From positions 56,000,333-56,064,332 of the forward strand of contig OX419756.1 of assembly GCA_948567375.1 (NCBI GenBank): DNA of 64,000 nt. Reading direction: 5' to 3'. This DNA is from Lunularia cruciata. Lineage: Eukaryota > Streptophyta > Marchantiopsida > Lunulariales > Lunulariaceae. Within the stretch, counting starts at the first letter, position 1. The number at the start of each line of letters is the position of its first letter. The translations under genes were made by a program, and so were the position numbers. Below the pieces are notes generated by a model that was given only the letters and a program-made list of their open reading frames with translations, did no database searches and was not told the origin of the DNA. Below are positions 16,162-39,980 of the stretch, piece by piece.

Positions 16162-16741
16162 TATATTGTGATGCCTTACTTCTTTCCAAAGTGCACCTTT
16201 TTCTTTCAACTTACTTATTTTAACCAAGAAGAAGGTACAAATAGTTGGCCAACAAGGAAGAGGGGAGGTTTATGATTGATTGCCTTCCACCCCAAGGAGA
16301 ATTACACCTTCAAGGGAAAAGGTGAATGTGTCGTGGGATCTAGCAATAGTAAATCAAGATAAAGATCATGGAGCATGGCTCTTTAGTAAAGAAAGTTGTT
16401 AGACAAGCAAAACTATAGTACAAAAATCCTTCATCTTGGGAGATCTTTGTCTGAAGAAGAGACCTTAGTTCTAGGATGATCTTTGGCCAGAAAATCCATT
16501 TGGCCTGAAATTTAGAGAGTAAATATGGCACCAATAGATAAAGAACTACTATTGATGACCGTTTGATTGGATTGACCACTCACATGTGTGAGCAATGAAC
16601 TCTCATCAAAGGGTACACTTACCAAGCATTCATAGCTATTGAGCTGTCACCTTAAATATCCACATTGGGCTTACATCCTTTTCAATTTTTTTAAAGTTAA
16701 CCAATGCAAGAATTATTAGGCTTTCCTCACCCTTGACAAGA

Positions 16742-16917
16742 AGATCCAACAAATTGAGAAAGTTTCAAACAAAGGACATTTGAATTGAGAAAGTGTATGA
16801 CTGTGCAAGGAGGATTGGGAAGTGTGAGAAGATCCAACAAATTGAGAAAGTTTTAGACAAAGGACATTTGAATTGAGAAAGTATATGACTATGCAAAGAG
16901 GATTGGGACAATGACAA
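16742..16917. repeat. Tandem duplication inside LTR-A, 88-bp period
   Basis: Two copies starting at 16,742 and 16,830 each begin AGATCCAACAAATTGAGAAAG and differ at a handful of positions, mostly transitions. Confidence 0.85.
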
Positions 16918-16919
16918 TG

Positions 16920-19250
16920 TGAGAATGATGATAGGACCAAAGAGAAAGGAAGTAGCCACCTCTAAAAATCCAAGGAAGATGAGGAGAGCATTTGAGTTTA
17001 TCATCAAAGCCCCAAGACTGAATAAGTATGCATTGTACTATAGATAAGACTTAGTTTACAATAAGAAATAAGAGTACTTGTTGTGGAATTGGGAATTGAG
17101 TGATCATGCAATGATGCATGGAATTAGAGACAATTGTTATTCAAGGATGGAGAACCTAAGAGGGAATCTCTTGCCTACACCAAAGATCATTGGTGTACAA
17201 TGTTGGGGCCAAGGAATTCTACCCCATATGGCATTACTCTATATAGTACTTGAACTCACACTGACTTGACTCTCAAAGCAAAGATCAAGGCAACATTCAA
17301 AGATAGCAAGACCAATAATGGTTGGTCTATTCTTGGAATTAAAGATCATGCAAGGCAGATTTTAGTTGAATTAGTGATAAAGTTATTCAAGTTTAAACAA
17401 ACAACTTACTTTAACAATAGTCATGAAATCTTCTTTGAGTATTTTGTACCAAGGAAGACCTATCAATTGGGCAACAATGTTCTAGGCAAGGGAAAGAGAG
17501 ATTGAGAGAAATACAAACAAGGAAGGAAAAGTGACTTTGGTATCTCTTTTTCTTGTCCATTTCTACTTGGGGATGGATTTACTGACCCAAGAGGAGAAGA
17601 AGAAGAAGTATCCAAACTACTTTTTCCCTACAGGACATTTCAAGGAGTTTTGAGAAAGAGCACAAATGGTAAGAAAAATATGTTGAAATAGATGCAGAAT
17701 TTTCCATCATAAGGAAGTGTATAGAGGTGCAAGAAGCCTACAATACTTTGGGCTTTGAGAGGCAAAGATAGCATGAGATTATTGTAGAGAAAATAGTCAA
17801 GAAAAGACATGCAACCTATTCTAGGCCAAAGGCAAAGGCCACCAAGAGCACAAGGAGGATCCTCATGGATGAAGAAGTTGAGGGCAAAGGTGGCATTAGC
17901 CCAACCAGATCCTACACCCACCGCCTACAAGCAATTATTCACAAGGAGCATTATTCTTCAAACAAGGAGGTAGCTAAGGACTAGGATGGAGAAGTATAAT
18001 TGACCCTTCCCCAAACTCCTTCAAGGGCAAAGAGCAATATTGAAGCAAAGGAAAGAATGCATGGGAGATTTGATGGGGAAGTTGGGCCTTCCCCATCCCA
18101 CCCCGCTAAGACTATAGTTGAGAGCTTGGGGATAGCTAGTTCTCCTTTGTTCCCATCTTTGGGAGATGTAGGATTATAGGAAGGAAGAGTACTTAAGGGA
18201 GAAGAAGTACTCAACATGGAAGAAGTTGTAGAGGATGTAGGTTCTTGCTAGGTGGAGGGAGGAGTTTGGGCCAAAGATGAACTTTAGGATAAAGAAGGAC
18301 TTCAATCAAAAGGTGAACTTATAGACAAATGATCATCCAAGACCAACATCCCTGTTGTGATGCAAGAGGAACATGAACAAGATGAGTCCACATTGTTTGT
18401 TAAGATTGAGATGAAAAAACTAGACATTTGGCTTTGTTCAAAAGTGTGAAGTGGGAGAGATGTTTCTCCAATATTTGTTGTACCAATTTCTATATTTTTT
18501 GTTCACACAATAGGCCAGGTGCTAGAATAGATGGAGTATCTTCTTTCCATGTACTGAGAATATCATGGGAGAGTTATGGATTATGTTACCCTTCTTAATC
18601 ATCTTCACCAAGTAGCATAATGAGTGGTGCAAGAATGAGTGCAAGCATGGGAAGAGTTGAAATGATGATTGTGTGCAATGCCTAGAGATGTGGAAGAGGA
18701 GTAACGACTTGGCACAGGAGATAGCCAAGGCTTCTCCTTGAACAAGAAGGTGCAAGAGGAAAAGGATCTTAAAGAAGAAAAAGTGTGCCTCAAAGCCCAA
18801 CTTGAGTAGAAGAAATTGATGCACTGACAAGAGAAGTAGAGAAGGTAAAGGTGGCATTCATTGCAATTGAAGTTTAACATCAAGGGGAGTTACAAGTGTA
18901 GGTGAAGAAGCTGATGGAAAATATCAAGAAGTAGGAGGGAAAATGCAATAAGGATTGAGCAGCCATTTAGGAGGAGATCTTGGTTGAGATGGAGGAAAGT
19001 TGTACTTAGTTCAATTTGGAGAAGACAATGATCTTGGCCAAGATGGAGATAGCATGGGACCAACTTGAAGAAATTGCAAAGGAGGTAATGGATTCCTCCT
19101 TGGAGAAATTAAAGGTTTAAGGTTCAAGATCCAAAGTACACACTCTCATTGTGAAAATATATATAGATGAGTGCATGTACCAACTTGCAAAACTACTTAA
19201 GCACACATGAAAGAAATTCAAGGAATCCATGAAGGTGCTATTGGGAGAGA
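16920..19250 (+). pseudogene. LTR-A-encoded protein remnant (FYLG motif, coiled coil)
   Basis: Decayed coding sequence runs through most of the LTR. A basic N-terminal stretch (about 16,925-17,000) is followed by a region at 17,080-17,505 that aligns with the minus strand at about 54,250-54,480, then a segment with HFYLGMDLL near 17,560, shared with HFYLGLNLL at 23,650 and HFYLGMGLL on the minus strand near 53,930. A Lys/Glu-rich linker and a coiled-coil tail (18,780-19,200) follow. Many stops and frameshifts are present, so no protein can be made. The function is unknown and it is not a canonical gag or pol domain. Homology to other giant LTRs here shows it was once a real coding region. Confidence 0.6.
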
Positions 19251-20468
19251 TCATGGGATACCAAGGCCGCATAGACTTGTTGGTTAAAGTTTTTAAGGGT
19301 GAAGGTAGTTCCTCTCAATAGATTCTAGGATGAAGATGTTCTAGCTAGAAGGGAAAAGGTAGAAATCTGCTAAGTATAGAATGCACCTTTGGCCCATAAA
19401 TCATTTTTGGCCTTAGAAGGTCTTTGTCCTAAAAGACCTTTGGCCTGACATTCTGTACGGACTATTGAAAATCTTGTTGCTGAAGATTTTGGAACTACAA
19501 TTATACATAGAGAAAATGACAAGTAATAGTTTGTTATTGGCAGCAGATGCACAATCATCTCTTAATTGCACTTTGGATAAGGTAAAATTAGTGGTAAGTG
19601 GAGTAGGTGTAATTAGAAGATTTCTAATACTCTTAGCCACTGATCATTCTTCATCAAGAGTAGGAAATGTTTTATATATGGGTTGCAACCCAAGGAAGCT
19701 ATGTCCACTTCTTTCATAATCTAAGTATTCAACTTGAGGATTTCTCTAAGTCTTTGTGTTGAATTGCTTCCACTTACATCTTTAATTGTATGCTTGGTCA
19801 TGTAGAGGTGAGGAGTCTTGTAGTAGGAGTGTGTGTTTGATTACTTGCTTAGGAAAATTGCCTTGTCTCAAGGAAGTTACCCTTGACATTCAGCGAGAAT
19901 GAGTGTTTGAGTACCTACTCAAGAAATTTGCACAAATCAAGGAAGTTACCCTTGACATTTTGAATGAGCAAGTCAATATGAGGAAGCATTGAAAGTACTA
20001 TAGAATAAAAAGCAAGTAGACAATCAATTTGAGATTTTGTTGGGATTATGTCTTTTGGGGGAAGGGATGCACATGGTCAGCAATAACGTCATGATGAAAG
20101 AACCTTTGGCTTGAAAACTGATCTTTGGGTTGAAATAAACCTAGGGAGATACTAGCCACTAGGGTAAAAGAGGCTCTTTAGCAAGAAGAGGACTTCAATG
20201 TGAAGTGAAACACCACTATCAAGGCTTTATTAGTTTAGATCTTTGGTGAGTAGTTCTCAATTTGTCTTTTTGTAGGGCACATAATAAGCGTATCTACCGT
20301 CCCTTAGAAGTGGTTTCTGCCCAAGAGGTTAAACATGCAAGGATTGACCACATGTGACATTGTGACACTTAATTCTCATTTCTAGTCACTTTCAACCTAT
20401 CCTTGAGGGAAAGTCATATTCTTACCATTTATTTGATAAGTACATCAACATTGGATTATCATATATAT

Positions 20469-22504: not shown

Positions 22505-23058
22505 GAATCTGTGGTACCCACATTTGTTGTTTTTTTGAAATAGAGAAGAAGAAATGTATAGAGAAGTTGGATTGCGCCTATATGGCTGAAGAAGGCAGAG
22601 AAAAGAGTCTTCAAGATGAAACCCGAGGTAATGTGGCTTTGGGTCATAAGGTGAAGTACTTGGAATTGCCTTGTCAGCATACAACCCAAAGTAAGAAGTC
22701 TTCGTATCGGGGGTGCTCAACCCGAGGCGAGGACAGTGTAACAACTTTCCTTTGGGGCGACAAATTCAAGAAGGGACCGTTCAAAAACCAGCGGTCATAC
22801 GCGTGAAGGACACTTGACAATGACATGAGCATGCAAGAGGTGTGATTTCTTGGTAGAAACTCAAATTGAAGAGAGACGAAGAAGGCGCAACTCTATAAAA
22901 ATTGGGCTAAAGACAAAGCAATGACAAGCAATTTTTCTTCGCCATTGAGAAGTCGTCCTGCAGGAGATTGTGGAAAGGGAAGTAGAGTCAAAGATGCGTT
23001 GGTGTGTAGAGGAGAATTTGAGAGAGCTAATCCGAGAGACAATGAGGAAGAAAGAAAG

Positions 23059-23822
23059 ATGTGAGGAGGGAAGAAGAACTCCAAATTTGCAGTGAGAAAT
23101 CATGCAATTGGAGGTTAGACGTGATTGTAAGAATTGAAGTCTTGAGCCAACTTCAGATCACATTCTTGGCATGGAACTGGAATGTGAGCTTTCCAGGATT
23201 CATGACTGAGATAATCAAGAGTAGATGTCTTGATGGCCCCGAGGAAGAGGGGAAAAGAGATAATCCGGCTTGCTGGATGGAGTCGGATTGGAGATTAGTC
23301 CTCGGAAGAGAAGCAGGCACGGAGCAGGGTGCCACGTTCTTGGGAAAGAGAGTGGTAGCAGAAGAAACCCAAGAAGTGAGAGATGCATTTTCTTTGAAGC
23401 GTACGAAGAATGGATACAAAGTAGAGAGTTACAAGGATCCTGTCAAGCAAGGGATCATGAGTGCTCTCATGGCAATCTTGAAGTTGGAGAGAATGACTTA
23501 TGTGATGAAGCACCAAGTGGTGTTCTCGCGTAAGATGTTTGCAGGAGAGCCGATTAACTGGGCAAAGTGCTTCCATGGGCGAACACAACAGATGGTGTGG
23601 AATTTGCGAGATAAATTGCCTCCGGATTACATTGTGCCATTTGCAGCACATTTCTATCTGGGGCTGAACTTGCTCAATGTGGCAGAGCGCAATAGAATGG
23701 TGTCACATTTCCATCCCAACTTAAGAAAGGAGGTCGATATGGAGGAACAACAATACATCTTCAAATTAGGAGCAGCGATGAGTACTATGCGCAGACGGGG
23801 AAGAGTATGCAAGAAGATGTGA
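23059..23822 (+). pseudogene. LTR-encoded frame A (FYLG-motif protein)
   Basis: An open frame runs to TGA at 23,820-23,822, about 250 codons. Residues in the second half include DPVKQGIMSALM, EPINWAKC and HFYLGLNLL; PINW and HFYLG recur in the minus-strand solo LTR at 53,723-54,250. The start is disturbed: the ATG at 23,059 is followed at once by TGA, where the 3' LTR reads ATGGGAGG (32,995), and one T is missing near 23,109 relative to the 3' copy, so the first 15-20 residues of the open frame are probably out of frame. No known enzymatic motif is seen. It may be an accessory element protein; it is not a typical gag, and the function is unknown. Confidence 0.55.
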
Positions 23823-25330
23823 GTACTCCGAAGTCAAAGAAGAGGAGTCGACAAGGAGAAGAAGAAGACGTCAAGAAAACAAGACCTCGGAAGACCAAAA
23901 GTGTAAACCCAAGGAAAGGTATGGTAGTAATCGCATCGTTGGAGGAAGAGTCGGAGGATGAAGCCAAGTGCAAGTCCGAAGACTTGGAAAGAGAAGAAGA
24001 ACCCAAGCTCACAGTGTGGAGTGGAGACACAAGTAGTGACAACAACAATGGAGGAGAGATGACGTCGGTACCCACAGAAGTAGAAGAAGCCATGATGAAG
24101 ATAGAGGAGGAAGGTAATGTGAAGTTAGAAGATGAAGTGCCAAAGCAGGAAGAGAGAAAAGTTACCATTCAAAGAGGAGTTTGTTCCAAAAGAAAGGTGA
24201 AGTGTGAAGCGGGTCCAAGCAAGGTAAGAGAAGAGGAGAATGCAAGTTCGGGAAGTGAAGCATCTATTTTGATACAACGGCTGCAGCAAAGAAGGCAAGT
24301 ATCAAGAGAAGAAGAGGTGAAGAAGGAGATCACTCCGCAAGTTGAAGTAGCAACAAGTGAAGGAGTGGAGTACCTACGGGAGGTTATGTGCCCTTTATTG
24401 GTGAAGTTGGAACACCGGAAGATGGAAATGCAGTCAAAGTGTATGGAGGTGAAGACTGTGTTGCAAGTGTTAGCCCGATTAGAAGAAGAGAACTTGGAAT
24501 TGAAGAAGAGTATAATCGGAGGTGAGGAGGAAAGGGAAGTACTATGAGTAGAGGCAATAGTACAGAATCAAGTGATTGAGAACTTGAGGAGAGAAGCAAG
24601 GAATCAAGAGGAACTCATAAAGCAGAGTGACAGAGCAAGGAAAAGACAAGTAGTTGAGAATGAGATCTTGAAGCAGTAGTTTGTTGACTCGAGATTAGAG
24701 ATTACCCATGCTATGGCAAGAGTAGCTGAGAAGGAACAAGAGCTCGATAGGGTGATGGAGAGTGTAGAAGAGAAGAAACAATTGTGGCAACAAGAGTTGA
24801 CAGTGCGATATAAAGAAGAAGAGAAGTTGAGAGAGTTACTTCGTAATCAAGAGGAGAAGATTGTACAGAAGGAGAAGGAGAAGGAGGTTGTGAAAGCCAA
24901 GTTTGAAGCAGAATTGGCAATGTACTGAGAAGATTGGCTTGCAGATCAAGAACGGGAGAGGAAAATGAGATTGGAGCCATTGAAGGAGATTGTAATTAGG
25001 ATGAATGCAATGTTGAGTATAGAGGTCAATGTGCGTATTGAAGAGACGAGGCTGCACGAGTTGAAGTTGTTGGTGTAGGAGACGAGGCAGAGACATGCAA
25101 AGGACACAGACTTGAATGCTTTGTTGATCAGTCTCAGAACTCGTGTGGATAGGAAGATATTGGAAGTAGAAGACAATATCATGATTAGATTAGACTTAGT
25201 GAAACTAGAGATAGATAAACTTTGGAAAGATGTTAGAGAAAAACCCGAAGTAGATGAAGTAGGAGTGCACATGTCTTTGGAGTTACTATTGGAGACATTA
25301 GAGAAGAGTCGGTCAGGAGATAAGGAGTAA
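23807..25330 (+). pseudogene. LTR-encoded frame B (acidic/basic linker and coiled coil)
   Basis: One frame is readable from 23,807 to about 25,330 (some 508 codons) with only four internal stops, at about 24,545, 24,677, 24,926 and 25,076. Three of these are sense codons in the 3' LTR copy, and the one at 25,076 is shared. The N-terminal 100 residues are rich in Lys/Arg runs (KSKKRS, KKTRPRKTK) that look like nuclear-localisation signals, followed by acidic stretches and then long Glu/Lys/Gln coiled-coil sequence. It overlaps frame A by 16 nt in a different frame. It is probably part of the same ancestral protein or a second protein; function unknown. Confidence 0.55.
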
Positions 25331-26294
25331 GAACAATTACCCACTAGTGAAATTTCAGATCAGGAAAGAGAACTGTTAGATTTAGTAAAGGATTTGTAGT
25401 TATGAAACCCGAGAACAGAGTAGTAGGAAGTAAAGTTACTTTGGGTTTGGGTTTGAAAGCCGAGGAAGAAGTAGACATCGGATTGGATTAGTTACAGATT
25501 TAAGATTTGAAGAAGCAGATATGAAGAGGTGCATTGTCATTTTGGATTTGGAAGTTTGTAGAGTTGTTAGGAAGAGGTACATTAGGAAGATAACTGTCAT
25601 TTGCTTCACTATTTAAGAGTGGCATTTTCAGTCTTATGTTGTTCAATCCTCATAATTCTGAGAATAGATAATGCAAAGTGCTGTGAAGCAATGCTCGTCG
25701 CTTGAGCTTGATTCCGAGTATCAACTTTGTGTTTGTGTTTGTGAGTGTTGGGAGAATTTTGAAGTGCAAGTCAGTGTGCGTGTTGGATGTTGGATTCCGC
25801 AGCCTTGATCTTCATTCTATGTGTTTGATCTTTAGTGAAGTGCAATCAAAGCAATGCCTTGACAAATCTTAGAGGAATTGTAGTGTTGGTAGTATTTTGC
25901 ATTTGTGAATGCAGTGCAAAGTTGATGTGAAGCAATTTTGATCTCGGAAGTTGTGCCTTCAGTGGAGAGATGGAACACAATTCTGAGGCAAAGTCATTTT
26001 ACTGTGAAGTGCCATTTTTGGGAGAGCTTGAATCATCACAATCAAGATTGTTTGGAAAGAATTGAAGGTGTTGTGATTAAGGAGTGTGAATTTGTGACAA
26101 GATTGCAAAACAATGCTTGTTACTCTCTTCTGGGTGTGGTTTCTACTTGAGAGATTAAAGACTCAACCAAGAAGAACTACATTGTTACTGTTTGACTTTG
26201 TATTTGACCAATTCTGAATCTTATCTCTATGGGAACAAACTTTACTTACCCAATTACCGCAAAAGTGATATTTGTTGGGTTGTCACATGATTTT

Positions 26295-26315
26295 TGGCAC
26301 CATTGCCGGGGATAC
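26295..26315 (+). other. Primer-binding site, tRNA-Asp type
   Basis: TGGCACCATTGCCGGGGA lies 7 nt after the 5' LTR and differs at two positions from the plant tRNA-Asp primer site TGGCGCCGTTGCCGGGGA. Both changes are G to A. Confidence 0.85.
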
Positions 26316-26389
26316 AAATCTCGGAAGTGGAAGAATATGAAGCCAAATTTGAAATTGGGTATCAAAGCAATATGAATGTCTACATAGAG

Positions 26390-28250
26390 AGAACAACAAG
26401 AAGAGAGAGTTTGAAGATGAGCATTGCATCATGAAGAAGACAAACGTCTAAAGATCCAAGCCACTTTTGACAAAACCAAATGAGAGGCGTTGGACTTACA
26501 ACTCCTTCACAAAGTGCAAGAAGCCCTGTGAGAACTTGACCAAAAGAAATGCAAAGGTGGTTGGCAAGGCTACTTTGCATCCCCCTCTTCCAAGAAGAAG
26601 AAAGACTCAAGCGGCCAAACATATGCATTATGGCCTAGTACACTGACTTCCCCTAGAGCTGTAAAGGAAGTTGCATCTTTAAAGAACTTTGTTCGAGAAA
26701 AGAGAGCACGGACATTGATAGAAGAAGAGTGTCAACATCTTCTACAAACGATTCCTTGGTTGTCCTAAAGGAATTTTGAAGAACACATTGAAGATGTTGA
26801 GCCTGATTCTTCCAAACGGGTTGAAGTCTACATCCTTAAAGAAGAACTTGTCGAAGAAGACCCTACCTTGAATTTGACAAATTGGAACCCTTGGGCTGTC
26901 AACACGGCGTCAATTCCAGCCAGTTCCTTGGTTTTGTCAAGTTCAAATTTACCCCAGCCGATCCCATCAAATCAAATGATGACTTCGTTGCCTGTCACTC
27001 GACACGCCTATCAAAAGTATAAGGGGACAAAACAAGATGAAGACCCCGATGAATTCATCAAAGAATTTGAAGTCATCTCCTTTGCTAACAAGGAGCATGA
27101 CTTGGCGGATCAACTGCAAATTTTCCCAAGTCTGCTCTGAAAGAAAGCTCGGAGCTGGTACACCCACGTAACCTAGAAGAGGTCTGTACCGGCGGATTGG
27201 GCGGACTTGCAAAACAATTTCCTGGAATGATTCTAGGAAGTTGATTATGATACGAGTGTCTTTGCAACACTCAACGATTTAGATTGAGGTAAGAAGGAGA
27301 AGTTGAGAGACTACTCTGAGTGGTTCATGGCACTTTTGAACCGAGTCTCAAAGCAATCGGGTGTGGTGGGTTACTCCAATGCCCAAGCCATTACTTGGTT
27401 CTTGGGAGGACTTTCACCAGAGATTTGGATCTTTGCAAGGGAAAGGAACATAACTTCCCTTGACAAGGTACTCAAACATGTCGCCCGCTATGAGGCGGCT
27501 CATTCTCACTTTGCCGGCAATCAAAGAAACTAGGAGAAGAAAGGCAAGAAGCCTAGAAGGAGAACTTCTTGCAGTACATCCCCTTCTTTGGAGGAATCCT
27601 CCACGTCTTCAAGCTCTTCTTCGGAATCTGAAGAAGAATCAAAGCCAAGACAAGTACAAAGACGTGGGGGTAAGAAACCAGTGACTCCCCCAGCAAAGAG
27701 TGTACATAAGACAAATACTAAGCTGGATTCCCTCATCAAGGAGTTTTTGGATTTCAAGATCCAGATGATTGGGGCTAAGGACAAAAGGAGGCCCCAGCAT
27801 TCGGCAGGTCCAACGTATGGTGCACCGCATATGGCAAGTCAGGCCATGCAAACACGGAATGCAATACTCGTAATGCATTCCTGGTATAGTAGATTGATTG
27901 GGTTCCGGGATGGAACCAAGAAGAGGAAGAAGAGGCTGTGTACCAAACCCAAGAGGTATAGCCTCAGGCGAGCACATTGTATCAAGGAATGAGGTATGGA
28001 CCAAGGGAGTATAACACCAATGCTCCTCCACGAAGACCACCGATGAGCAACCAAAATTGACCTCAGAATGTTGCACCCGGGGCCTATTACAATTGTGGCT
28101 CAATGGGACATTGGTCTCCAAACTGTCCTGAGCCAAGAAGGCAAATTAGGTACGTTCTCCTATGCGGAAATTGTAAAGGATTGGGCCATACGGGCAACCA
28201 ATGCCCTCACCCACTAAACCCAAAGCCACTTGTAAAATATGTATAGACCC
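26390..28250 (+). pseudogene. gag: gag of giant-LTR gypsy
   Basis: The capsid-like region is best read at 26,868-27,533: a stretch with DEDPDEFIKEFE, then KARSWYTHV and DYSEWFMALLNRV, the usual plant gypsy gag layout, broken by stops at about 27,138, 27,175, 27,230 and 27,283. A Ser/Glu-rich linker (27,590-27,680) leads to two zinc knuckles at about 28,085-28,200. The second is a perfect C-X2-C-X4-H-X4-C (CGNCKGLGHTGNQC); the first reads YYNCGSMGHWSPNC, with its first Cys changed to Tyr. The product would package element RNA in cytoplasmic particles; this copy cannot make it. Confidence 0.82.
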
Positions 28251-28768
28251 CCATTGAGCGTGCAATGCTTCAAGCGAAGGGTGATATGAATGTAAATTGT
28301 ATAACACTTGAGGAGGAGAGACCTTAGGAAGGGAGTCCGGCCTTGGAAGGAGAATGGCCGGACCTTGAAATTCTGAAGGTTGAGACACGCGCAAGTAAGA
28401 AGAAGCGTGACCCCAAAGAGCTGAGTACGACCTCATTGTCTTCCAAAAAGGCAAAGAGACTCTGCCCAAAGGCAATTCTTTTGCCAAGGAGGAAAAGATC
28501 CTTGCTAAAGCCAAAGCTAAAGCCTTGCAGAAAGAACTTAAGGAAGCAATACTCACAACTCAAGAAATGAGTTTGGAGGAGGAGACAAAGACAAAGCTTC
28601 TAGTTTTTCTGGCGGACATCCGATCCAAAGTAAAGGGTCTGATCCAAGCCAAGGTGGGCCAACCCAAGGAACTCGGGTCAAGACCACTAGCAATCTCATC
28701 ACCATTCTGAAACGTCTTGAAGTCAAAATCAAACATGGAGAGACTTCAAACCCAAAGCCAAAGGCAAA

Positions 28769-29255
28769 GACGGTCAAATTGGGAAGGGTACCCCAATACG
28801 ATATCATAGCGGATTTGGCAGCCACAAATGCCAATGTCACATTTAAGCAATTGTGGGATCACAACAAGCTGTACAAGAAGTAGCTGAATTTGGCCCTTCA
28901 GAAAGTAAGGTCGATGTCAAAGAAGGACCTGCCTGCTATCTATCATATTGAGCAAGAAGATCTAGGATCTCCCGAGGTCAACGTGGAGATTGCAAGGTGC
29001 ATGATCACATTGATACCCATTGATTTGGGTTTCGGTGTGAATGTCATGACCAGAGATACTACAAATTGACTGGGGTATCATACGTTTGAGCCAACACCCC
29101 GAGTCTTGAAATTTGCAGACCAAACCAGGAGACGGCCCTTGGGCATGCTGTCAAACATTACCATGATCATTGGAGGGATGCCCTTCAAGTTGAATTACAT
29201 TGTGTTGTGACCAGTGACTAAGACTGGTTACCTTCTCTTGATTGGAAGACCCTAG
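28769..29255 (+). pseudogene. Retroviral-type aspartic protease region
   Basis: The region around 29,005-29,045 reads IDLGFGVNVM, matching the active-site loop of plant gypsy proteases with the catalytic Asp kept but the following Ser/Thr-Gly disturbed. Near 29,235 the sequence LLLIGRP then L-Y-N-A-Q fits the C-terminal flap and core. In-frame stops at about 28,880, 29,068, 29,208 and 29,253 break it. Its normal role is to cleave the gag-pol polyprotein. Confidence 0.7.
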
Positions 29256-31016
29256 TTGTACAATGCCCAAGTTGTGGTGGATTTGCACCAGCAAAAGTTA
29301 CGGTTTAAGGACATTTTGTCCAAAGACCAGAAGCTGGTGACTGTGAGTTGGACAAAGGTCCCTCGTCTTGGGGAAACTTGTTTGTCAGAAGATGAGGATG
29401 AATCCAAAGACTCATTGTCTTTTTCCTCAAACAAATCTGAAGACAAAGTCCAAGTCAATTACTTGGAATGCTATGAGGTGGATGTCAAAGACAAAGATCC
29501 ATATGACCTCGCCTTGGGTGAACCTGACTTGGAGGAAGGGGGTTTGATGGCAGCTCACCTCAGGTTAAGCCGAGTAAGCCACGTTGAAGGAGTCATCAAC
29601 CCCAATGATTGTCAAGATGTTGTTTTGACAGAAGGAAAAATTTTAAAATTTTTGAAGACAATCACTTTGGAGGAGTTGGCAGGATACACTGCCATGTTTA
29701 TAGAATTCCAGGATGTATTTGCCTGGTCTATTGATCAAATGCCGGGTATTCCATGAGAATTTGGAGAACATTGGATTGATCTGGTTGAAGGTGCAGTTCC
29801 GGTTTGGCAGAGACAATATTGTCTGAACCCAAAGTACTCCCTTTTGGTGAAAGATGAAATCGACAAGTACTTAGGAGCCAGAATCATCTTCCCTGTCTTA
29901 AGCAATGAATGGGTCTCCCCCATTGTCATTGTCCCAAAGAGGAAAACAGGGAAGATCCGAGTGTGCCAAGACTTCTGTAAGTTGCATGCAGTCACAAGGA
30001 AGGATCATCATCCCTTGCCTTTTACCGATACAATTCTAGACCAAGTAGCTGGTCACCCTTGTTATAGTTTTCTTGATGGATTCTTAGGGTACAATCAAGT
30101 ATCCATCCAAGAAGAGGACAAGGATAAAACTACATTCACGACCAATTGGGGCACTTTTGCTAACAATCAAATGCCCTTTGGGTTGTGTAATGCTCCAGCT
30201 ACTTTCCAGCGGATGATGAATTCAATCTTCAAGGATTTCCTATGCAAATTTGTTGAAGTATTCATTGATGATTTTTGTGTGTTTGGGCGAAGAGATGTAC
30301 ATTTGGATTACCTTTGCCAAACTTTTGAAAGGTGTCATTTTGCTGGATTGTCATTACACCCAGAGAAATGCTTCTTTGCAATGAAGGAGGGAATTCTTCT
30401 GGGGCATTGGGTGTCAAGCCAAGGTATTGAAGTAGATGTCGAGAAGGTTAAAGTAATCATAGCTTTGGAATCCCCAAAGAACATCCGAGAGCTGAGAGCC
30501 TTCTTGGGACATGTCAGATACTATAGACGCTTTGTGTCAAACTATGCGGTGCTTGCTGCACCCCTTACAAAGCTGCTGAAGAAGTCCGAAGACTATCTGT
30601 GGAAAGCAAATCAAGAAGAAGCTTTCCAGGTGTTGAAGAAGAAACTGGTTGAAGCACCAATTATGAGGCCCCCAAATTGGGACGTCCCTTTTCATGTATA
30701 TGTGGACACTTTGTCCATGGCCATCGGCGTCATCTTAAGTCAGAAGGATGAGAAGAAGAAGGACTACTCGGTGTATTATGCCAGTCAACAACTTTCAGTT
30801 TTTGAAAAGAACTATTTGACGACTGAAAGAGAAGCACTCAGAATGGTGTATGCCTGCAAGAAATTTTGCCACTACCTATTGGGATACGAGTTTGTCTTCT
30901 ATGTGGACCATTACGCATTGCAACATTTGGTCAAGAAGGCAAATTTTTCCGGGCAATTTGCAAGATGGATTTTGTTGTTACAAGAACTCACATATACTGT
31001 ACAAGTAAGGAAGTGA
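29256..31016 (+). pseudogene. pol: Reverse transcriptase and RNase H
   Basis: One frame covers the connection to protease, RT and RNase H, interrupted by a TGA at 29,754 (probably a CGA change); the main open part is 29,844-31,016 (390 codons). RT fingers and palm include VSPIVIVPKRKTGKIRVCQDF, MPFGLCNAPATFQRMM and catalytic FIDDF; LGHVRYYRRFVSNYA marks the thumb. RNase H follows with YVDTLSMAIGVIL, an ERE glutamate and YVDHYALQHL. The catalytic residues of both enzymes look intact, unlike integrase. It would copy element RNA to DNA in the particle. Confidence 0.93.
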
Positions 31017-31059
31017 GCTTTGCATTTGAATGTGGACTTCCTGTCCTAGTTAGAAACTC

Positions 31060-32395
31060 AAGACCAAAGTGGAAAATTGACAATTGGTTCCCTAATGAAG
31101 AGTTATACCAATTAACAACAATGCAAAGTACAAGGTATGCAGCACAATATCATTATCTCCATACTCTCTATTGTCCTGAAGGGCTGGACCCAGAGCAGAG
31201 GGCAGTCTTTCTCAGGAAAATGGGGCCGTATCAGCTCAAACAAATCATTCTATTCAAGATGGGCAAAGACAAAGTACTTTGGCGATGCTTGGAGTCATAT
31301 GAAGTCGGAGGCATAATTGAGTCTTTACACTCCAAAGCATCGGGAGGACACTATGCTTTGAAAAATACTATAAAGAAGATTCTTTCCACAGGGTATTGGT
31401 GGCCTACAATGTACAAAGACAAGCATGCTCATATCCAAAGCTATGATGCTTGTCAGAGAATGGGGAAGCCGACGGCTACTTCTCAATGGCCTTTGAGACC
31501 AATTTTTCCATTGGCCCCATTTGAGAAATGGGGAATTGATTTTGTGAGTCCCATTCAACCAGTGACCCGAGTCACAAGGAAGCGATACATTTTGGTTTGC
31601 ACTAACTATGCTACCAAGATGGTCAAAGATGAAGCAACTTGCAGAGATGATGCCGAAACTATGGCGGAGTTTTTCTTTCAAAAAATCATCTCCTGATATG
31701 GGTGTCCTTTGGAATTGGTCAGTAACAGAGGGACACATTTTTTGAACTTTGTGATGGAGGCATTAACCAAGTACTTCCAGATTAAACATTGGAAGACGAC
31801 TCCTTATAACCCAAAAGCAAATGGCTTAACAGAAAAGGCGAATGGGTTACTTTGCAAAATTTTGAATAAGATGATTATCAATTATGACTATGACTGAGAT
31901 ACAAAATTACCAGCCGCGTTGTGTGCCTATAGAACGACAAAAAAATTACAACCAAACAAACATTATACTTCTTGACATATGGCTTGCATCCCATACTACC
32001 AGTTGAATTTGAAGTACTAACATATCATATTCTTTGTGAAGAACGATTCTTGGAGGAAGAAAGCCAAGATCTTCGGATCCATCAACTAATATGATTAGAA
32101 GAGAAAAGAGACGATGCAATGCAAACCACAAAGGACGTACAAGAGCAGAGGAAAGTCAAGCACGATAAGCATATCAAGCCTGTGGCTGTGCGCAAAGGAG
32201 ATTTGGTTTTGTTATACAACAATCACCAAATATTTTTCCCAGGCAAGTTGCATTTGAGATGAATGGGGTCTTATCAAGTTCTTCATCTTTATGAAAATGG
32301 GTCCATTCAACTTGCAGACCTGGAAGGAAATCCTTTTGCCACTTGAGTAAACGGGTGGAGAGTTTGGAGATATTGGACCAGAGACTCAAAAGTCT
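31060..32395 (+). pseudogene. int: Integrase with C-terminal domain
   Basis: The frame shifts between RT/RNase H and integrase at about 31,016-31,060. The zinc domain has HSKASGGHY followed by SYDACQRMGK, in which the first Cys of the usual CDAC has become Tyr. The core has EKWGIDFVSP (first Asp present), VSNRGTHF (second catalytic Asp changed to Asn) and LTEKANG (Glu present). Stops fall at about 31,696, 31,895 and 31,975. The C-terminal domain near 32,195-32,370 reads KGDLVLLYN, GKLHL, NGSIQLADLEGNPFA. No chromodomain is visible. With the second Asp lost this copy could not integrate DNA. Confidence 0.88.
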
Positions 32396-32437
32396 CTAAG
32401 ACACCTGAAGTCTATGTTCACGGAGATGCTCACATTT

Positions 32438-32446
32438 GAGGGAGAA
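32438..32446 (+). other. Polypurine tract
   Basis: GAGGGAGAA directly abuts the 3' LTR. The related junction at 47,520-47,530 has AGGGAGAAC before GTGGTAC, suggesting that three bases (TGT) at the LTR start were lost here. Confidence 0.75.
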
Positions 32447-35400
32447 GGTACCCACATTTTTTGTTTTTTTTGAAATAGAGAAGAAGAAGTGTATAGAGAA
32501 GTTGGATTGTGCCTGTATGGCCAAAGAAGGCAAAGAAAAGAGTCTTCAAGACGAAACCCGAGGTAACATGGCTTCGGGTCATAAGGCAAAGTACTCGGAA
32601 TTGCCCTGTCAGTATACAACCCGAAGTAAGAAGTCTTTGTATCGGGGGTGCTCAACCCGAGGCAAGGACAGTGTAACAACTTTCCTTTGGGGCAAGAAAT
32701 TCAAGAAGGGACCGTTCAAAAACCGGTGGTCATACACGTGAAGGACACTTGACAATGACAAGAGCATGCAAGTAGTGTGATTTCTCGGTAGAAACTCAAA
32801 TTGAAGAGAGACAAAGAAGGCGCGACTCTATAAAAATTGGGCTAAAGACAAAGCAATGACAAGCAATTTTCCTTCACCATTGAGAAGTTGTCCTGCAGGA
32901 GATCATGGAAAGGGAAGTAGAGTCAAAGATGCTTTGGTGTGTAGAGAAAAATTTGAGAGAGCTAATCCGAGAGACAGTGAGGAAGAAAGAAAGATGGGAG
33001 GAGGGAAGAAGAACTCCAAATTTGCAGTGAGAAATCATGCAATTTGGAGGTTAGATGTGATCACAAGAATTGAAGTCTTGAGCCTACTTTGGATCACATT
33101 CTTGGTGTGGAACTAGAATGTGAGCTTTCCAGGATTCGTGATTGAGATAATCAAGAGTAGATGAAGTGCTTCTATGGGCAAACACAACAAATGGTGTGGA
33201 ATTTGTGGGATAAATTGCCTCCGCATTACATTGTGCCATTTGCAGCACATTTCTATCTGGGGCTGAACTTGCTCAATGCGTGTTTGGTGAACCAAAGATG
33301 CTTTTGCCAAAACCATGGCAGAGTGCAACAGAATGGTGTCCCATTTCCATCCCAACTTAAGAAAGGAGGTCAATGTAGAGGAACAACAGTAAATTCTTCA
33401 AATCAAGAGCAACAATGAGTACTACACGCAAATGGGGAAGAGTGTGCAGGTGGACATGAGTACTCCAAAGTCGAAGAAGAGGAGTCAACAAGGAGAAGAA
33501 GAAGACGTCAAGAAAACAAGACCTTGGAAGACTAGAAAGGTAAACCCAAGGAAAGGTATGGTAGTAATTGCATTGTCGGAGGAAGAGTTGGAGGACAAAG
33601 CTGAGTGCAAGTCCAAAGACTCAAAACGAGAAGAACCCAAGCTTACATTGTAGAGTGGAGACACAAGTAGTGACAGCAAAAATGGAGGAGAGATGACGTC
33701 AATACCCACAGAAGAAGAAGAAGCCATGATGAAGATAGAGGAGGAAGGTAACGTGAAGTTAGAAGATGAAATGCCGGAGCAAGAAGAGAGAAAAGTAACC
33801 ATTCAAAGAGGAGTTTGTTCTAGGAGAAAGGCAAAGTGTGAAGCGGGTCTGAGCAAGGTAAGAGAAGAGGGGAATGCAAATTCAAGAAGTGAAGCATTTA
33901 TTTTGATACGACGGCTGCAGCAAAAAAGGTGAGTATCGAGAGAAGAAGATCACTCAGCAAGTTGAAGTAGCAACAAGTGAAGGAGTGGAGTACCTACGGG
34001 AGGTTGTGTGCACTTTATTGGTGAAGTTGGAACACCGGAAGAAGGAAATGCAATTGAAGTGTCCGGAGGTGAAGATTGTGTTGCAGATGTTAGCCCAATT
34101 GGAAGAAGAGAACTCGGAATTGAAGAAGAGTATAATCCGAGGTGAGGAGGAAAGGGAAGTACTACTAGTAGAGGTAGTAGTACAAAATCAAGTGATTGAG
34201 AACTTGAGGAGAGAACCAAGGAATCAAGAGGAACTCATAAAGCAAAGTGACATAGCAAGGGAAAGACAAGTAGCTGAGAATGAGATCTTGAAGCAGCAGT
34301 TTGTTGACTAGAGATTAGAGATTACTCATGCTATGGCAAGAGTAGCCAAGAAGGAACAAGAGCTCAATAGAGTGATGGAGAGTGTAGAAGAGAAGAAGAA
34401 GTTGTGGCAACAAGAGTTGACAATGCAATATAGAGAAGACGAGAGGTTGAGAAAGTTACTTCGTAATCAAGAGGAGAAGATTGTACAGAAGGAGAAGGAG
34501 AAGGAGGTTGTGAAAGCCGAGTTTGAAGCAGAATTTACAATGTATCAAGAAGATTGGCTTGCAGATTAGGAACAGGAGAGGAAAATGATATTGGAGCCAT
34601 TGAAAGAGATCATAATTAGGATGAATGCGATGCTGAGTACAGAGGTTAGTGTGCGTATTGAAGAGACGAGGCTGCACAAGTTGAAGTTGTTGGTGTAGGA
34701 GACGAGGAGGAGACATGCAAAGGATACAGACTTGAATGCTTTGTTGATTAGTCTCAAAACTTGTGTCGATAGGAAGATATTGGAAGTAGAAGACAATATC
34801 ATGATTAGATTAGACTTTGTGAAACTAGAGATAGATTAACTTCGGAAAGATGTTAGAGCAAAACCCAAAGTAGATGAAGTAGAAGTGCAGATGTCTTCGG
34901 AGTTACCATTGGAGACATTAGAGAAGAGTGGGTCGGGAGATAAGGAGTTAGAACAATTACCCACTAGTGAAATTTCAGATCAGGAAAGAGAACTGTTAGA
35001 TTTCGTAGAGGACTTAGTAGTTATGAAACCCGAGAACAGAGTAGTAGGAAGTAAAGTTACTTTGGGTTTGGGTTTGAAAGCCGAGGAAGAAGTAGACATC
35101 AGATTGGATTAGTAACAGATTTAAGATTTGAAGAGGTAGATATGAAGAGGTGCATTGTCATTTTGGATTTGGAAGTTTGTAGAGTTGTTAGGAAGAGGTA
35201 CATTAGGAAGAGACTTGTTGTTGCTTTACTATTTAAGAGTGGCATTTGCAGTCTTATGTTGTTCAATCCTCATAATTCTGAGAATAGATGAAGCAAAGTG
35301 CTATGAAGTAGTGCTTGTCGCTTGAGCTTGATTCTGAGTATCAACTTTGTGTTTGTGTTTGTGAGTGTTGGGAGAATTTTGAAGTGCAAGTCAGTGTGCT

Positions 35401-35907
35401 TGTTGGATGTTGGATTCCACAGCCTTGATCTTCATTCTATGTGTTTGATCCAGAGTGAAGTGCGATCAAAGCAATGCCTTGATAGATCTGAGACGAATTG
35501 TAGTGTTGGTAGTATTCTGCATTTGTGAGTGCAGTGTGAAGTTGATGTGAAGCAATTTTGATCGAGGAAGTTGTGCCTTCAGTGGAGGGGTGGAACAAAA
35601 TTCTGAGGCAAAGTCATTTTACTGTGAAGTGCCATTTTTGGGAGAGCTTGAATCATCTCAATCAAGATTGTTTGGAAAGAATTGAAGGTGTTGTGATTAA
35701 GGAGAGTGAATTTGTAACAAGATTGCAAAACAATGCTTGTTACTCTCTTCTGGGTGTGGTTTCTACTTGAGAGATTAAAGATGCAACCAAGAAGAACTAC
35801 ATTGTTATTTTTTGACTTTGTATTTGACCAATTCTGAATTGTATCTCTACGGGAACAAACTTTACTTACCCAATTACCGCAAAAGTGATACTTGCCGAGT
35901 TGTCATT
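32447..35907 (+). repeat. 3' LTR of giant-LTR gypsy, 3,461 bp
   Basis: It begins GGTACCCACA and ends TTGTCATT where the 5' copy has TTGTCACA. It lacks the 337 bp at 23,228-23,564 (junction at 33,163/33,164), has about 37 extra bases near 33,280-33,315, and has a 14-nt deletion near 33,940. The rest aligns closely with the 5' LTR. Confidence 0.9.
32995..35112 (+). pseudogene. LTR-encoded frames A and B, 3' LTR copy
   Basis: Frame A starts with a plausible ATG at 32,995 but meets TAG at about 33,115 (TGG in the other LTR) and has lost the PINW region in the 337-bp deletion; HFYLGLNLL survives near 33,250. Frame B is open at 33,432-33,653, 33,693-33,932 and, after a 14-nt deletion shifts the frame, 33,985-34,311, 34,333-34,569 and 34,885-35,112. 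Most of its stops are at different places from those in the 5' LTR copy, so most arose after insertion. Confidence 0.55.
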
Positions 35908-35912
35908 GAATC

Positions 35913-37246
35913 ATGAATGTAATTAGATTACCTTAGGTAAAGGTGTACATGCATGAGTAATTGTAGTAGTTAGTTTATCAATCACGTGAACACACCTCAG
36001 AGAAGTTTGAGGAATCTATAAAGTCACTACTAAAGGATATACTAGAATCTTGGGACATTGTAGAGTTGTTAGTTAAGGTTTGTAAGGGCAAAGTTAGTTC
36101 CTCACAATAGACTTTAGGACAAAGTAATTCTAGACATAAGGAAATAGGTAGAAATGTTTTAAGTATAGAACACTCCTTTGGCCTGATATTATTTATTATC
36201 TACATGACAATTTTCTAGCCAAAGATTTTGGAACTATAATTATACATGGAGTAAACTACATGTAGTAGTTTGTGATTGGTGGTACTTATCCAATCACTTC
36301 TTAATTGTACATAGAATAAGATCAGTAGGTAGGATTAGTCATAAATGGAGTAGGCATAATCAGAAGATTTCCAGCACTCTTAGCCATTTGATCATCTTCA
36401 TCATCAAGAGTAGGAAATTTTATATGTGGATTGTGGATCAAAGCTATGTCTATTTTGTTCAGAATCAAATTATTCAGCTTAAGGATTTTTCTAAGTCTTT
36501 GTGTTGGATTGCTTTCACTTACATCTTTGGTTATACATTTGGTCATGTAGAGGTGAAGAATCTTGCATTAAGAGTTTTTTTTGAGTAATCTTTTAGGAAA
36601 TTTGCACTAAATCAAGGAAGTTATCCTTGACAATGAGAGTGGGTGCGTGAGTACCTATGCAAGGAATTTGCACATTTGCAAGGAAGTTAACCTTGACATT
36701 ATGAACAAGCAAGTCAATGTGAGGAAAGGTTTTGGGAACAATGGAGCATTGATAATATCACAACATAGAAAAGCCAAGTAGAAAATCAATTTAAGATTTT
36801 ATTGGGATTGCATTTTTAGGAAGAGATGTGCACAATCAACATTGGCATCAAGGTAAAAGAACATTCTTTAAAACTGACCTTCAGCCTGAAAACTAACCTT
36901 TGGGGTGAAATGTACCTACAAGAAGGGCCTAGTAGATGAGATAAAAGAGGCTCTTTAGGAAGAAGAGACCTTTGGAATGAAGTGAACCACCACTATCAAG
37001 GGATTTTTAGATATGATCTTTGTGTGAGTAGTTGTTAATTTCTCTTTTTTGTAGGATGCCATAGGAGGTATTACTACCTTCTTTTAGGAGTGATTTTTTG
37101 CCCAATAGGTTAAATAGACAAGAATAGATAACTAGTGATGTTGTGACATTTTATCTTAATTTTTAGTCATTTCCAAATTGTATCCTTGTGGGAACGACTT
37201 GTTCTTACCAATTGTACTATTAATAAATCAATAAAAGGTTGTCATA
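35913..37246 (+). repeat. LTR-A family, 3' fragment
   Basis: From about 35,930 this matches 240-1,620 and 19,150-20,463, ending GGTTGTCATA at 37,246. The giant-LTR element lies immediately left of it, but no matching 5' LTR-A part is seen left of 22,505, so the older copy was truncated before or during that insertion. Confidence 0.7.
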
Positions 37247-37254
37247 CCAAGTTA

Positions 37255-38529
37255 GAGGTATCTACAAAAAAATGAAAAACCAACTCCTACTTTGGTGCTG
37301 CCAAAATTGGAGCAATGGCCAAATTTTGCTCTAAAGTTTTGAATACTTTGGTGCATTTTTTGGTCTACACAAAGTAGACTATGGCATGTAAGAGGCCCAT
37401 CTATGTAGAGGTGATCTCAACATACATATAAACATATCACTTGTAATATCCCTAACAACCTAAGAACCTTCTTTGCTCATTCACAATCTCTAGTATGAGC
37501 CACCCTTGAATAACTTGGGTCTTCTTGAGATCCACCATTATGTCATTTTTGTAGACCATGTAACCAAGGAGAGGTCCACAAGAGATGGTGAATGAACACT
37601 TGTGTGGATTGAGAGAAATCCTCACTTGCTTGCAAATGCATAGAACAACCTTAGCAAGCTGATATTGTTATTATGGGAGCTTTACATGCACATATTGTCA
37701 AGTTATAGTTCCATGTCCTTCCTTATTGCACCAAAGGAGTTCATCATATAGCATTATAATGTTGTGGGAGCATTTTGCAATCCAAAGTGCATTACTTGGT
37801 AAGTGTAGGTGCCCCACTCTATGACAAAGGTAGTCTTGTATTGATCTTTTGGAGCAATGGTGATCTAGTTGTAGCCAGGATACCCATCCATGAATGAGAA
37901 AAATTGGCTATGGGCCACTTTGTCCAATAGTGTGTTTATGAACAAGATCAGAAAGGGTTGTTTGAGATGGTCTAGGCATTCACTTTCTGAAAGTCCACAT
38001 AGATGTGGACCTTTCTTGCATCCCTTTTAGGGACCACCAAGATTAGGGAGGCCAATTCTATTCTTCCTACAAGATAGATAAACTTGTTGTCCAATAGCTT
38101 GTCTAATTTTTCCTGCACTTTCTAATAGTAAGTGGAGTTCAATCTATATGGTTTGGATCTGACTCCAATAGCATCTTGATAGAGTAAGATTTGATGTTGG
38201 CACATTTGGGGATCAACACCCATGAGTTTTGTGTAGTCATAGGGAACACATCTCAAAACTCTCAAAAGAGGTCTTGATAGGTAGATTGACCTTCAATTAA
38301 CACATTGGTGTTGATCTTAACATATTTAGGTGTTTCATTTATTTGCAAGATATTGAGATCATGAAACTCACCTACAATCTACAAGTGGAGGGGGATGGTT
38401 TTAGATGACAACTTTGGAGGTTTCTCCAAAAAGTATCATGCAATCTAAACTCATGTACTATATGATGGACTTCTTTTTCCTTTTCAACCCATTTTGTAGG
38501 CTTCTCCAAATGATCATCAAGCTCTTTTA
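37255..38529 (-). pseudogene. Gypsy RT remnant, separate minus-strand element
   Basis: Reading the minus strand leftwards from about 38,290 gives a pre-RT segment (MGVDPQMCQHQI, SKPYRLNSTYY), RT fingers (ILVVPKRDARKVHIYVDF), a palm segment (YKTTFVIEWGTY, then FGLQNAPTT), a damaged active site where the second Asp reads Asn (LDN), then CSFTISCGPLLGY, and near 37,260-37,330 the start of the thumb/RNase H join (APILAAPKWV). Frameshifts and stops are dense. It is distinct in sequence from the element at 38,530-45,426, whose RT lies at 40,600-41,430. Confidence 0.75.
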
Positions 38530-38822
38530 GGAATCAATGCCCAAACTAAAAAAGCTTACATGCCCAAGAGTTCTCAACTCTTTCCTCAAAGCCAAACACC
38601 TAGAAATAATACCAAGTCAACACACTAGAATCCAAAATAGTAGTGCTTATCTTTTCCACTTCCTCTAAAGAAAGGTCCTCTTTATCTTAGCTATGAGTAA
38701 TGTTAGCTAATCATGACTAATATAGAACCATCCTTTATCTCTATATAAATAATATCTCTTAAATAATTGTAATACCAAGCTAAATATCACAATACCACAC
38801 ACATGCACAAATGGGTGTTACA
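38530..38822 (-). repeat. Truncated 3' LTR of element C
   Basis: It matches the right-hand 290 bp of 44,739-45,426, ending GGGTGTTACA at 38,822. It is followed on the plus strand by TTAACCCCCGGAC, which is a polypurine tract (GTCCGGGGGTTAA) on the element strand. Confidence 0.85.
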
Positions 38823-38869
38823 TTAACCCCCGGACTAAGTTTCACTTTGTCTTCAAATTGAAGGTCTCT

Positions 38870-39980
38870 CTATACCTTCTATGATACATCTTTAACTTAT
38901 CACGGTTAAACCTATCAAAGTGTCTTCTTTCCAACTCCTTGAGATCATAGGTGTAATTACCCCACACCTCTCTACTATGAAAGGTCCAAAGTACTTAGGC
39001 AAAACTTCTTTTGCACTCTCTTGAATTGGATGGTATCAAACAACATTACCCAATCACCTTCTTTGAAAAGCTCCATCTTCTTCTTGCCTTGCTTCTTGTT
39101 ATAGTTCTCCTTTTGTTTCCTTTGAGCTTGCTCTACTCAAACCATAGCAGTTTCTCTTGCATCCTCCAATTCCATGAGTTGATCCTTCCTTGACTTCTTT
39201 GCATCACCTCCTTGTGCTTTCTTCAATCTCCTATGAATGCTTTGGAAGGTAGGAAGATCAAAGTGAATAGGTAAGGTAGACTTAATACCATATACCAATC
39301 AAAATGGAAAATATCTAGTGGAAGTCTTCATGGTTGTCCTATACTCCCACAAAACTACATGAATCCTCTTATCTCAATGATGTTCAGCCCCTTCCATTTT
39401 TGCATCTTTGGCCAATATCATACAGAAGGTCTGATTGGTTCTCTCTGCCAAGCTATTGGAATTTGGCTTATAGGATGCAATTATTCTATGTGTGATAGAG
39501 AAATTTTGTAGCATGGCTGTAGTGATGCTTCATGTAAACTCTCCTCCTCTATTAGAAACCAACTCCAAAGGGCATTCAAACCTAGTGATAATGCATTCAT
39601 AAAGAAATCTACCCACTTCATCTTCATTCTTGTCCCTCAATGGTCTAGCATCAACCCACTTGGTAAGGTAATCAATAACTACCACAATGTACCAATTGTT
39701 GCTTGGGGTTCTATTGAGAGGACCTATTAAATAGATTTCCCGCTTCTCAAAAGGTCCTAGCAATAGAATTGATCTAAGTGGTGGAGTGGAAGTAGACTTT
39801 CTAGCAAAAGCTTGACAAACATGACAAGTTTTGCAAGAATCCAAACAATCCTTGAAAATCCCTCTCCATGATAACTTGCATCTAGAATCTTGAAAGCAAT
39901 CACCTTTCTTGCAAAGTGTCCTCCATACACTAAACCTTCATGAAACTCCTTTATGAGTAGGATAGACTCTTCCTTACCCA
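38870..39980 (-). pseudogene. int: Integrase of element C
   Basis: The zinc domain ends in CKTCHVCQAF (about 39,820). The core reads EKREIYLIGPL where the usual motif has an Asp (here Tyr), then SNRGGEF where the second Asp reads Asn, then SLAERTNQT with the Glu kept (about 39,440). A C-terminal region with KMELFKEGDWVML follows to about 39,020. Stops and a frameshift near 39,530 break it. Two of three catalytic acids are lost, so it is inactive. Confidence 0.85.

Follow-up and report, generated by a model that had tools for sequence, protein, structure and literature searches.

A large accessory reading frame inside the giant LTRs of a Ty3/gypsy lineage in Lunularia cruciata

Long terminal repeats (LTRs) of a Ty3/gypsy lineage in Lunularia cruciata house a large open reading frame (ORF). 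It is a single ORF, it is intact in some copies, it evolves under purifying selection and it recurs in several LTR families. The focal case is the 5′ LTR of a 13.4-kb element in the window, the 64,000-nucleotide stretch of DNA analysed here. Within one genome, this amounts to an LTR that is about two thirds coding, with one strongly constrained domain and relatives in several LTR families. The best overall explanation, and in our judgement a probable one, is that the LTR of this lineage is a gene-bearing repeat with an accessory gene in U3. The features of the focal element are as follows.

22505-22509, partner 35908-35912, no strand: candidate target site duplication (TSD) GAATC, read from the sequence
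22510-26287, + strand: 5′ LTR, 3778 bp, starting TGTGGTACCC and ending TTGTCACA, delimited by blastn against the 3′ LTR and by ends repeated in independent copies
22894-22899, + strand: putative TATA box 1 (TATAAA), with the conserved start Met 165 nt downstream
23059-25491, + strand: LTR-borne accessory ORF, with stops and frame changes here and 811 codons in intact copies
23217-23790 (approximate), + strand: PINW...HFYLG domain, under the strongest constraint; about residues 100-290 in the 857-aa reading
23791-24361, + strand: charged linker, about residues 290-480, 44% D/E/K/R, net -19
24362-25320, + strand: charged region, probably helical and possibly a coiled coil, about residues 480-800
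25610-25616, + strand: putative TATA box 2 (TATTTAA), about 120 nt past the ORF
26288-26312, + strand: spacer and primer binding site (PBS), TGGCACCATTGCCGGGG; a young copy has TGGCGCCGCTGCCGGGG
26313-32443, + strand: interior with gag, CCHC, protease region, RT, RNase H and integrase, from Pfam
32444-35907, + strand: 3′ LTR, with the ORF as in the 5′ LTR minus an internal 337 bp

A single reading frame in a giant LTR

The original prediction of a giant LTR with a long coding region of its own was borne out, and its borders at 22510-26287 held: blastn pairs this segment with 32444-35907, at 92.5% identity over 717 bp and 90.2% over 2760 bp. Across the pair, 3155 of 3437 ungapped aligned positions are identical (91.8%), so the focal copy is old. 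The ends of the 5′ LTR recur in independent copies, most of them with 5-bp TSDs. The first three bases of the focal 3′ LTR deviate, and from 35937 the element's 3′ neighbour is another repeat family that is not seen upstream of 22505; for these two reasons the insertion history of this copy is not fully settled. Pfam matches in the interior (PF03732, gag; PF00098, zinc knuckles; PF00078; PF17917/PF17919; PF17921; and PF00665, the rve match, which falls below its cut-off) follow the Ty3/gypsy order of RVT_1, RT_RNaseH, then Integrase_H2C2 and rve. Other hallmarks of the group are the focal LTR pair itself and two young elements with perfect TSDs, a PBS and a purine tract. The PBS of the focal element is probably tRNA-Asp-like. 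Pfam gave no match where protease is expected, downstream of the zinc knuckles and ahead of RT, and none for a chromodomain in 32002-32402 (one decayed copy, single frame); an additional RNase H was not found in the pieces scanned, again of one decayed copy. Since gag sits separately in the interior, the frame in the LTR is an extra gene.

That frame had been described as two overlapping frames totalling about 750 codons. The two focal frames, of 253 aa and 246 aa, are instead pieces of one broken ORF of about 811 codons, which is read in a single frame in five copies elsewhere in the genome. Over three stretches, stops common to both focal LTRs number 0 in 253, 0 in 274 and 1 in 281 codons of the ORF frame, against 9 and 5, 18 and 10, and 33 and 18 in the two other frames; the 337 bp that the 3′ LTR lacks fall in the first stretch and cannot contribute shared stops, whichever frame is read. 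Each focal LTR was broken separately, and the frame of the family was open. The five copies (L029-L033), fetched because their frames were long, are all intact: counted from the first Met, each reads through 811-857 codons without a change of frame and ends at the same C-terminus. L029 has a first-Met length of 857 aa and L031 one of 856 aa, and the ORF would extend to 857 codons with an N-terminal extension from 22921. The true start is more likely residue 47 of the 857-aa reading, which gives 811 codons: a Met stands there in subfamilies of the L018, L020, L019 and L016 types, with in-frame stops upstream of it. Not one of the 19 tabulated old copies matches the ORF from end to end in one stretch without a stop. 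The cohort of the focal copy therefore looks dead, but there are younger copies that are intact.

The location of the ORF was followed through the 566 Mb and 74 contigs of this one genome, with every copy count being a minimum. Of 9153 first-look candidates in a DNA search, 41 were scored as matches, and 20 loci fetched from that list held 12 complete focal-type LTRs. Four of the 12 continue directly into a PBS and interior, seven are single LTRs with 5-bp TSDs (five perfect, two at 4/5), and one shows neither PBS and interior nor TSD. The junction of LTR end and PBS has 432 exact occurrences genome-wide, compared with 0 for a reversed-pattern control. For both young elements the reading was confined to the ends. 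They have perfect TSDs (CTGCA/CTGCA and AGCAT/AGCAT), their 5′ LTR is followed by a PBS, and each of their LTRs holds the domain, in agreement with the claim that the frame is present twice per element; in one of them 255 of 261 LTR-end positions are identical. A protein search with the PINW domain scored the best 150 of 20648 candidates. The domain is free of stops in 99 of these, and nine same-strand pairs are separated by 9.89-10.15 kb, as LTR pairs should be. The ORF thus lies inside the LTR, in both LTRs of an element and in solo LTRs, and falls outside the printed definition of an aORF/eORF as an extra ORF in the internal region. A short LTR with this frame in the interior, named beforehand as an outcome that would speak against the prediction, was not seen in the 12 complete focal-type LTRs or the 20 loci examined.

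Homologues of the ORF also occur in other LTR families, with about 30-69% amino acid identity in the PINW domain. Two tblastn matches of the domain lie within the window, at 54202-53879 (29.6% over 108 aa, E 6e-15) and 17411-17632 (31% over 77, E 9e-8). Further domain pieces, at about 43-69% identity, were found in eight fetched loci (L012, L015, L016, L019, L020, L023, L025 and L027). The LTRs of the other families are listed here.

50955-55231, - strand: family-2 solo LTR, 4277 bp, decayed, TSD CTTGT/CTTGC
54202-53879 and 52639-52010, - strand: PINW ORF homologue and helical tail of this solo LTR, decayed
16167-20463, + strand: second family-2 LTR copy, 4297 bp, homologous ORF decayed
L018:5246-8980: solo LTR of a third family, 3735 bp, inside a focal-type interior, TSD CAAGG/CAAGG

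The first of these appears to be inserted in the integrase region of another gypsy element, and its joined flanks read as an integrase core; this assignment relies partly on a motif of such cores, the tblastn matches of the flanks to other elements in the window being weak (left E 0.07 and 0.21, right nothing useful). The second copy is flanked on both sides by a TSD-like TATAT, which is of low complexity and weak. In the third-family LTR, 199 aa of the domain are free of stops and show 58.8% identity, and the tail has 6 stops. Two diverged LTR families, one in the window and one in a fetched locus, carry homologues of the ORF in solo LTRs. As to the expectation that the frame persists in every solo LTR, five solo LTRs of the focal type have perfect TSDs, and the homologues in the family-2 LTRs are decayed.

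Selection on the ORF and the encoded protein

Comparisons between intact subfamilies (L029 or L031 against the others) gave dN/dS of 0.147-0.210 in all seven pairs, drawn from five intact copies that had been chosen for open frames, and none of 300 permutations was as low in any pair. The permutation null keeps base composition and substitution types and lies at about 0.6 (0.62-0.65), not 1. The most constrained region is the PINW domain at 0.04, followed by the helical tail at 0.13, the linker at 0.26-0.32 and the N-terminus at 0.28-0.40; residues 1-47 are little constrained (0.38-0.46) and residues 801-857 unconstrained (0.85-0.89 in this comparison, 0.71-0.99 in a second one). A ratio near 1 had been named in advance as the result that would tell against the prediction, and the rounded range of 0.15-0.21 in 7/7 intact-subfamily pairs, like the value in PINW, is a different result. 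The close copies L030, L032 and L033 gave 0.345 (1 of 300 permutations as low), 0.369 (10 of 300) and 0.463 (63 of 300, not below the null).

A decayed pair from family 2, not chosen for openness, gave 0.379 against a null of 0.62 (0.48-0.79; 0 of 1000 permutations), and its shared stops number 1 in 503 codons, compared with 26 in 496 and 19 in 498 in the other frames. Constraint is not clear in two of the five segments of this pair, the second half of PINW (0.74) and the linker (0.66), and the family-2 LTR tail gave 1.07, 0.67 and 0.57 in three frames, none below the null range. The focal LTR pair is uninformative, at 0.38, 0.96 and 0.44 in three frames. Because dN/dS lies below the null in both focal-type and family-2 pairs, selection has maintained the ORF in at least two families.

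The PINW and HFYLG motifs of the original prediction are indeed present in the ORF. Its basic/acidic linker was also recovered, at the charge density listed above, but the coiled coil that had been placed behind it is weakly supported: a global heptad test was negative, with 490 of 1000 shuffles reaching the observed value, and in a windowed test the mean was reached by 24 of 2000 shuffles and the maximum by 157 of 2000. The N-terminal domain is probably helical in a low-confidence AlphaFold model built from a nine-row alignment (mean pLDDT 51); a prediction from a single sequence reached a pLDDT of 40. A PDB fold search gave a best match of E 3, and the structures were discarded as evidence.

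Profile and sequence searches were largely blank. Pfam gave no match to the ORF in the focal pieces and one weak match (E 0.34) with two intact proteins, and NCBIfam gave one match at E 0.066, far below its cut-off. Transposase_32 (PF20167), a plant transposon ORF, was absent from the matches of the two full proteins and nine domain sequences; a genome scan for PF20167 found none, but the controls of that scan were equally silent. The nine domain sequences drew three Pfam families, one member each, with a best E of 0.022, and PDB sequences yielded one chain at E 0.042; both were taken as chance. Plasmid records held no homologue. In a set of 5.8 billion proteins, which may hold few plant retroelements and was searched without a positive control, the best E was 1.2, and viral contigs, queried with two LTR pieces and two pol pieces, gave no confirmed match. 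As the RT and integrase pieces were blank there as well, these last two results say little about plants. No fold or homologue supports any particular biochemical role.

Putative promoter motifs and the proposed working of the LTR

Two putative TATA boxes frame the ORF. All 12 complete old copies and four of five intact copies have TATA 1 at the corresponding position. Its distance to the start Met is 165 nt in the focal copy and in those four; the box is altered in the fifth intact copy, L031. TATA 2 is identical in all seven focal-type tails that reach its position, five of them from other subfamilies with roughly 72-77% DNA identity, a count given without a significance test. TATAAA was not found in the two family-2 LTRs, and TATTTAA is not at the aligned place in four family-2 rows. 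With TATA 1 altered in L031 and both boxes missing at the matching places of family 2, a two-promoter layout is not general. Folding of the leader RNA gave a z of -2.4.

These motifs suggest how an accessory gene in U3 might work. U3 would hold the TATA 1 promoter, a leader of roughly 135 nt and the single ORF of about 811 codons, whose product would be an element-specific accessory protein composed of the PINW...HFYLG domain, the charged linker and a helical, possibly coiled-coil tail. TATA 2, just past the ORF, would start the genomic RNA and thereby place the ORF in U3. At the 3′ end of the genomic RNA, the ORF would be copied by reverse transcription into both LTRs, and each LTR, including solo LTRs, would act as a compact transcription unit encoding the protein. 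The division of labour itself, with TATA 1 serving the accessory mRNA and TATA 2 the genomic RNA, is a tentative proposal read from motif positions, to which we give slightly less than an even chance. That the protein acts in trans as an RNP- or chromatin-associated factor for the element is a guess from its composition, and a somewhat unlikely one. The broadest version holds that all LTRs of the lineage, even solo ones, are complete gene units (promoter, ORF and terminator) for a new, strongly conserved family of proteins that act in trans for the element, for instance as an anti-silencing or RNP factor; it is possible, if doubtful.

Three other accounts of the frame fare poorly. In 200-bp windows, purines make up 54-73% of the ORF region, a bias that makes stops rarer in one frame and might yield an open frame by chance. 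However, its longest stop-free run of 283 codons exceeds the largest in 2000 simulations under both Markov orders (169 for order 1, 209 for order 2), and with the excess at third positions and dN/dS below the permuted null this refutes a chance origin. Equally refuted is the idea that the coding region is truly interior and resembles an LTR only by rearrangement of the focal copy; the region upstream of the element does lack a match to the repeat at its 3′ end, so that the locus may be rearranged, but independent copies show the exact ends, TSDs and LTR-PBS junctions. That the LTR picked up a host gene which merely rides along and does nothing for the element is disfavoured as very improbable. 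Capture of host genes by LTR elements does occur, according to the accessible portion of PMC7264820, and the protein has no known transposon relative in the searches above. Against it, the ORF recurs in a large family with many copies and in several LTR families that have diverged from one another, and it is under purifying selection between element subfamilies; passengers, by contrast, decay.

A more serious alternative, which we nonetheless consider rather unlikely, places the ORF in R or a long 5′ leader. TATA 1 would then start the genomic RNA and the ORF would be the first cistron ahead of gag, in the manner of an ORF0; its 3′ copy would come only from a giant R, and gag-pol would be reached via splicing or re-initiation. 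A first cistron of 811 codons would be expected to block scanning to the downstream gag, and a single-promoter model has no need of TATA 2 with its identity across the seven focal-type tails. On the other side, TATA 1 lies about 380 bp into the LTR, is kept in all complete old copies and holds its spacing to the start in four of the five intact ones. A precedent is Retrosat2, which in the available text of PMC3485330 combines an early TATA box in a 3.2-kb LTR with an ORF0 ahead of gag-pol.

A gene inside the LTR has several consequences. It offers a reason for giant LTRs. Solo LTRs gain a coding potential that annotation would miss, and lone LTRs left after loss of the element can still carry the ORF. 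Were the LTR a complete gene unit, the formation of a solo LTR, which ordinarily finishes an element off, would instead preserve a functional helper gene. Whether a protein encoded in an LTR influences silencing or mobilisation also becomes open to direct test.

Comparison with known accessory genes

The original statement that accessory frames of plant gypsy elements usually lie in the interior agrees with the literature, in which the available passages of PMC7264820, PMC6317226 and PMC11963269 place the aORF/eORF of plant elements in the internal region. LTRs are treated there as regulatory, and those of PMC3485330 are said, in the part of the text available, not to code for replication enzymes. 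The Lunularia ORF shares with the aORF/eORF class its status as an extra ORF, its unassigned function and a high divergence between families, but it lies in the LTR rather than the interior. The phrases 'in the LTR' and 'within the LTR' are absent from the text of PMC7264820. Literature searches, mostly without reach into subscription papers, found no plant LTR-borne ORF.

By features rather than by tree, the focal element resembles the non-chromoviral OTA (Athila/Tat) clade in its probably tRNA-Asp-like PBS; no chromodomain, the mark of chromoviruses at the integrase C-terminus, was found in the one frame of the decayed copy that was scanned. Extra ORFs are common in that clade, according to the accessible part of PMC6317226. 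The additional RNase H of the Tat lineage was not seen in the scanned pieces of the focal element. The nearest plant case is the ORF0 of the rice elements Retrosat2, RIRE3, RIRE8 and FRetro3, which are also plant gypsy elements with a long LTR and an extra ORF. These are chromovirus-type elements, and their ORF0 is interior. Compared by description, ORF0 differs in lying upstream of gag-pol and outside the LTR. Available passages of PMC3485330 give the four elements LTRs of about 3 kb or more, an ORF0 upstream of gag-pol and an early TATA box.

The nearest way of working is offered by mouse mammary tumour virus (MMTV), a vertebrate betaretrovirus with another protein, likened here by layout. 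Its superantigen gene, sag, sits in the LTR, an accessory ORF found twice per provirus. The accessible text of PMC11998498 terms sag an accessory gene, cites work on 'MMTV LTR ORF sequences', and describes positive selection and recombination in sag and, at another point of the text, purifying selection. In contrast to sag, the Lunularia ORF is far longer, at about 811 codons in a 3.8-kb LTR, and belongs to a gypsy retrotransposon.

Synonymous divergence at the ends of the LTR-borne frame

In L029-L031, loci from elsewhere in the genome in which the accessory ORF is intact, synonymous divergence (dS) is low at both ends of the frame, at 0.10-0.38 (residues 1-94 and 801-857) versus 0.23-1.41 inside. 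Such a pattern would fit DNA-level signals that overlap with both ends of the coding region.

Family-2 copies and other repeats in the window

Copies of the second giant-LTR family (family 2), remains of other gypsy elements and a separate repeat family also occupy the window:

1-1633, partial family-2 copy carrying part of the ORF's helical tail
35937-37244, partial family-2 copy, likewise with part of the helical tail
37245-41222, minus strand, decayed RT, RNase H and integrase pieces from at least one other gypsy element
50955-55231, minus strand, family-2 solo LTR
7110-7796, 38541-38825, 44743-45428 and 46029-46718, separate repeat family, direct and inverted copies

Members of the separate repeat family share 82-92% identity, and blastn matched none of them to the focal LTR. 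Although the second partial family-2 copy starts 30 bp past the focal 3′ LTR, nothing belonging to family 2 was seen directly upstream of the focal 5′ LTR.

Nested insertions

The family-2 solo LTR interrupts what is probably the integrase region of another gypsy element, itself decayed, whose RT lies at 56868-56069; the empty site of this insertion is readable. Elsewhere in the genome, a related-family solo LTR with a 5-bp TSD sits within a focal-type interior (L018:4964-9901), and other fetched loci also contain related LTRs inserted into or beside one another.
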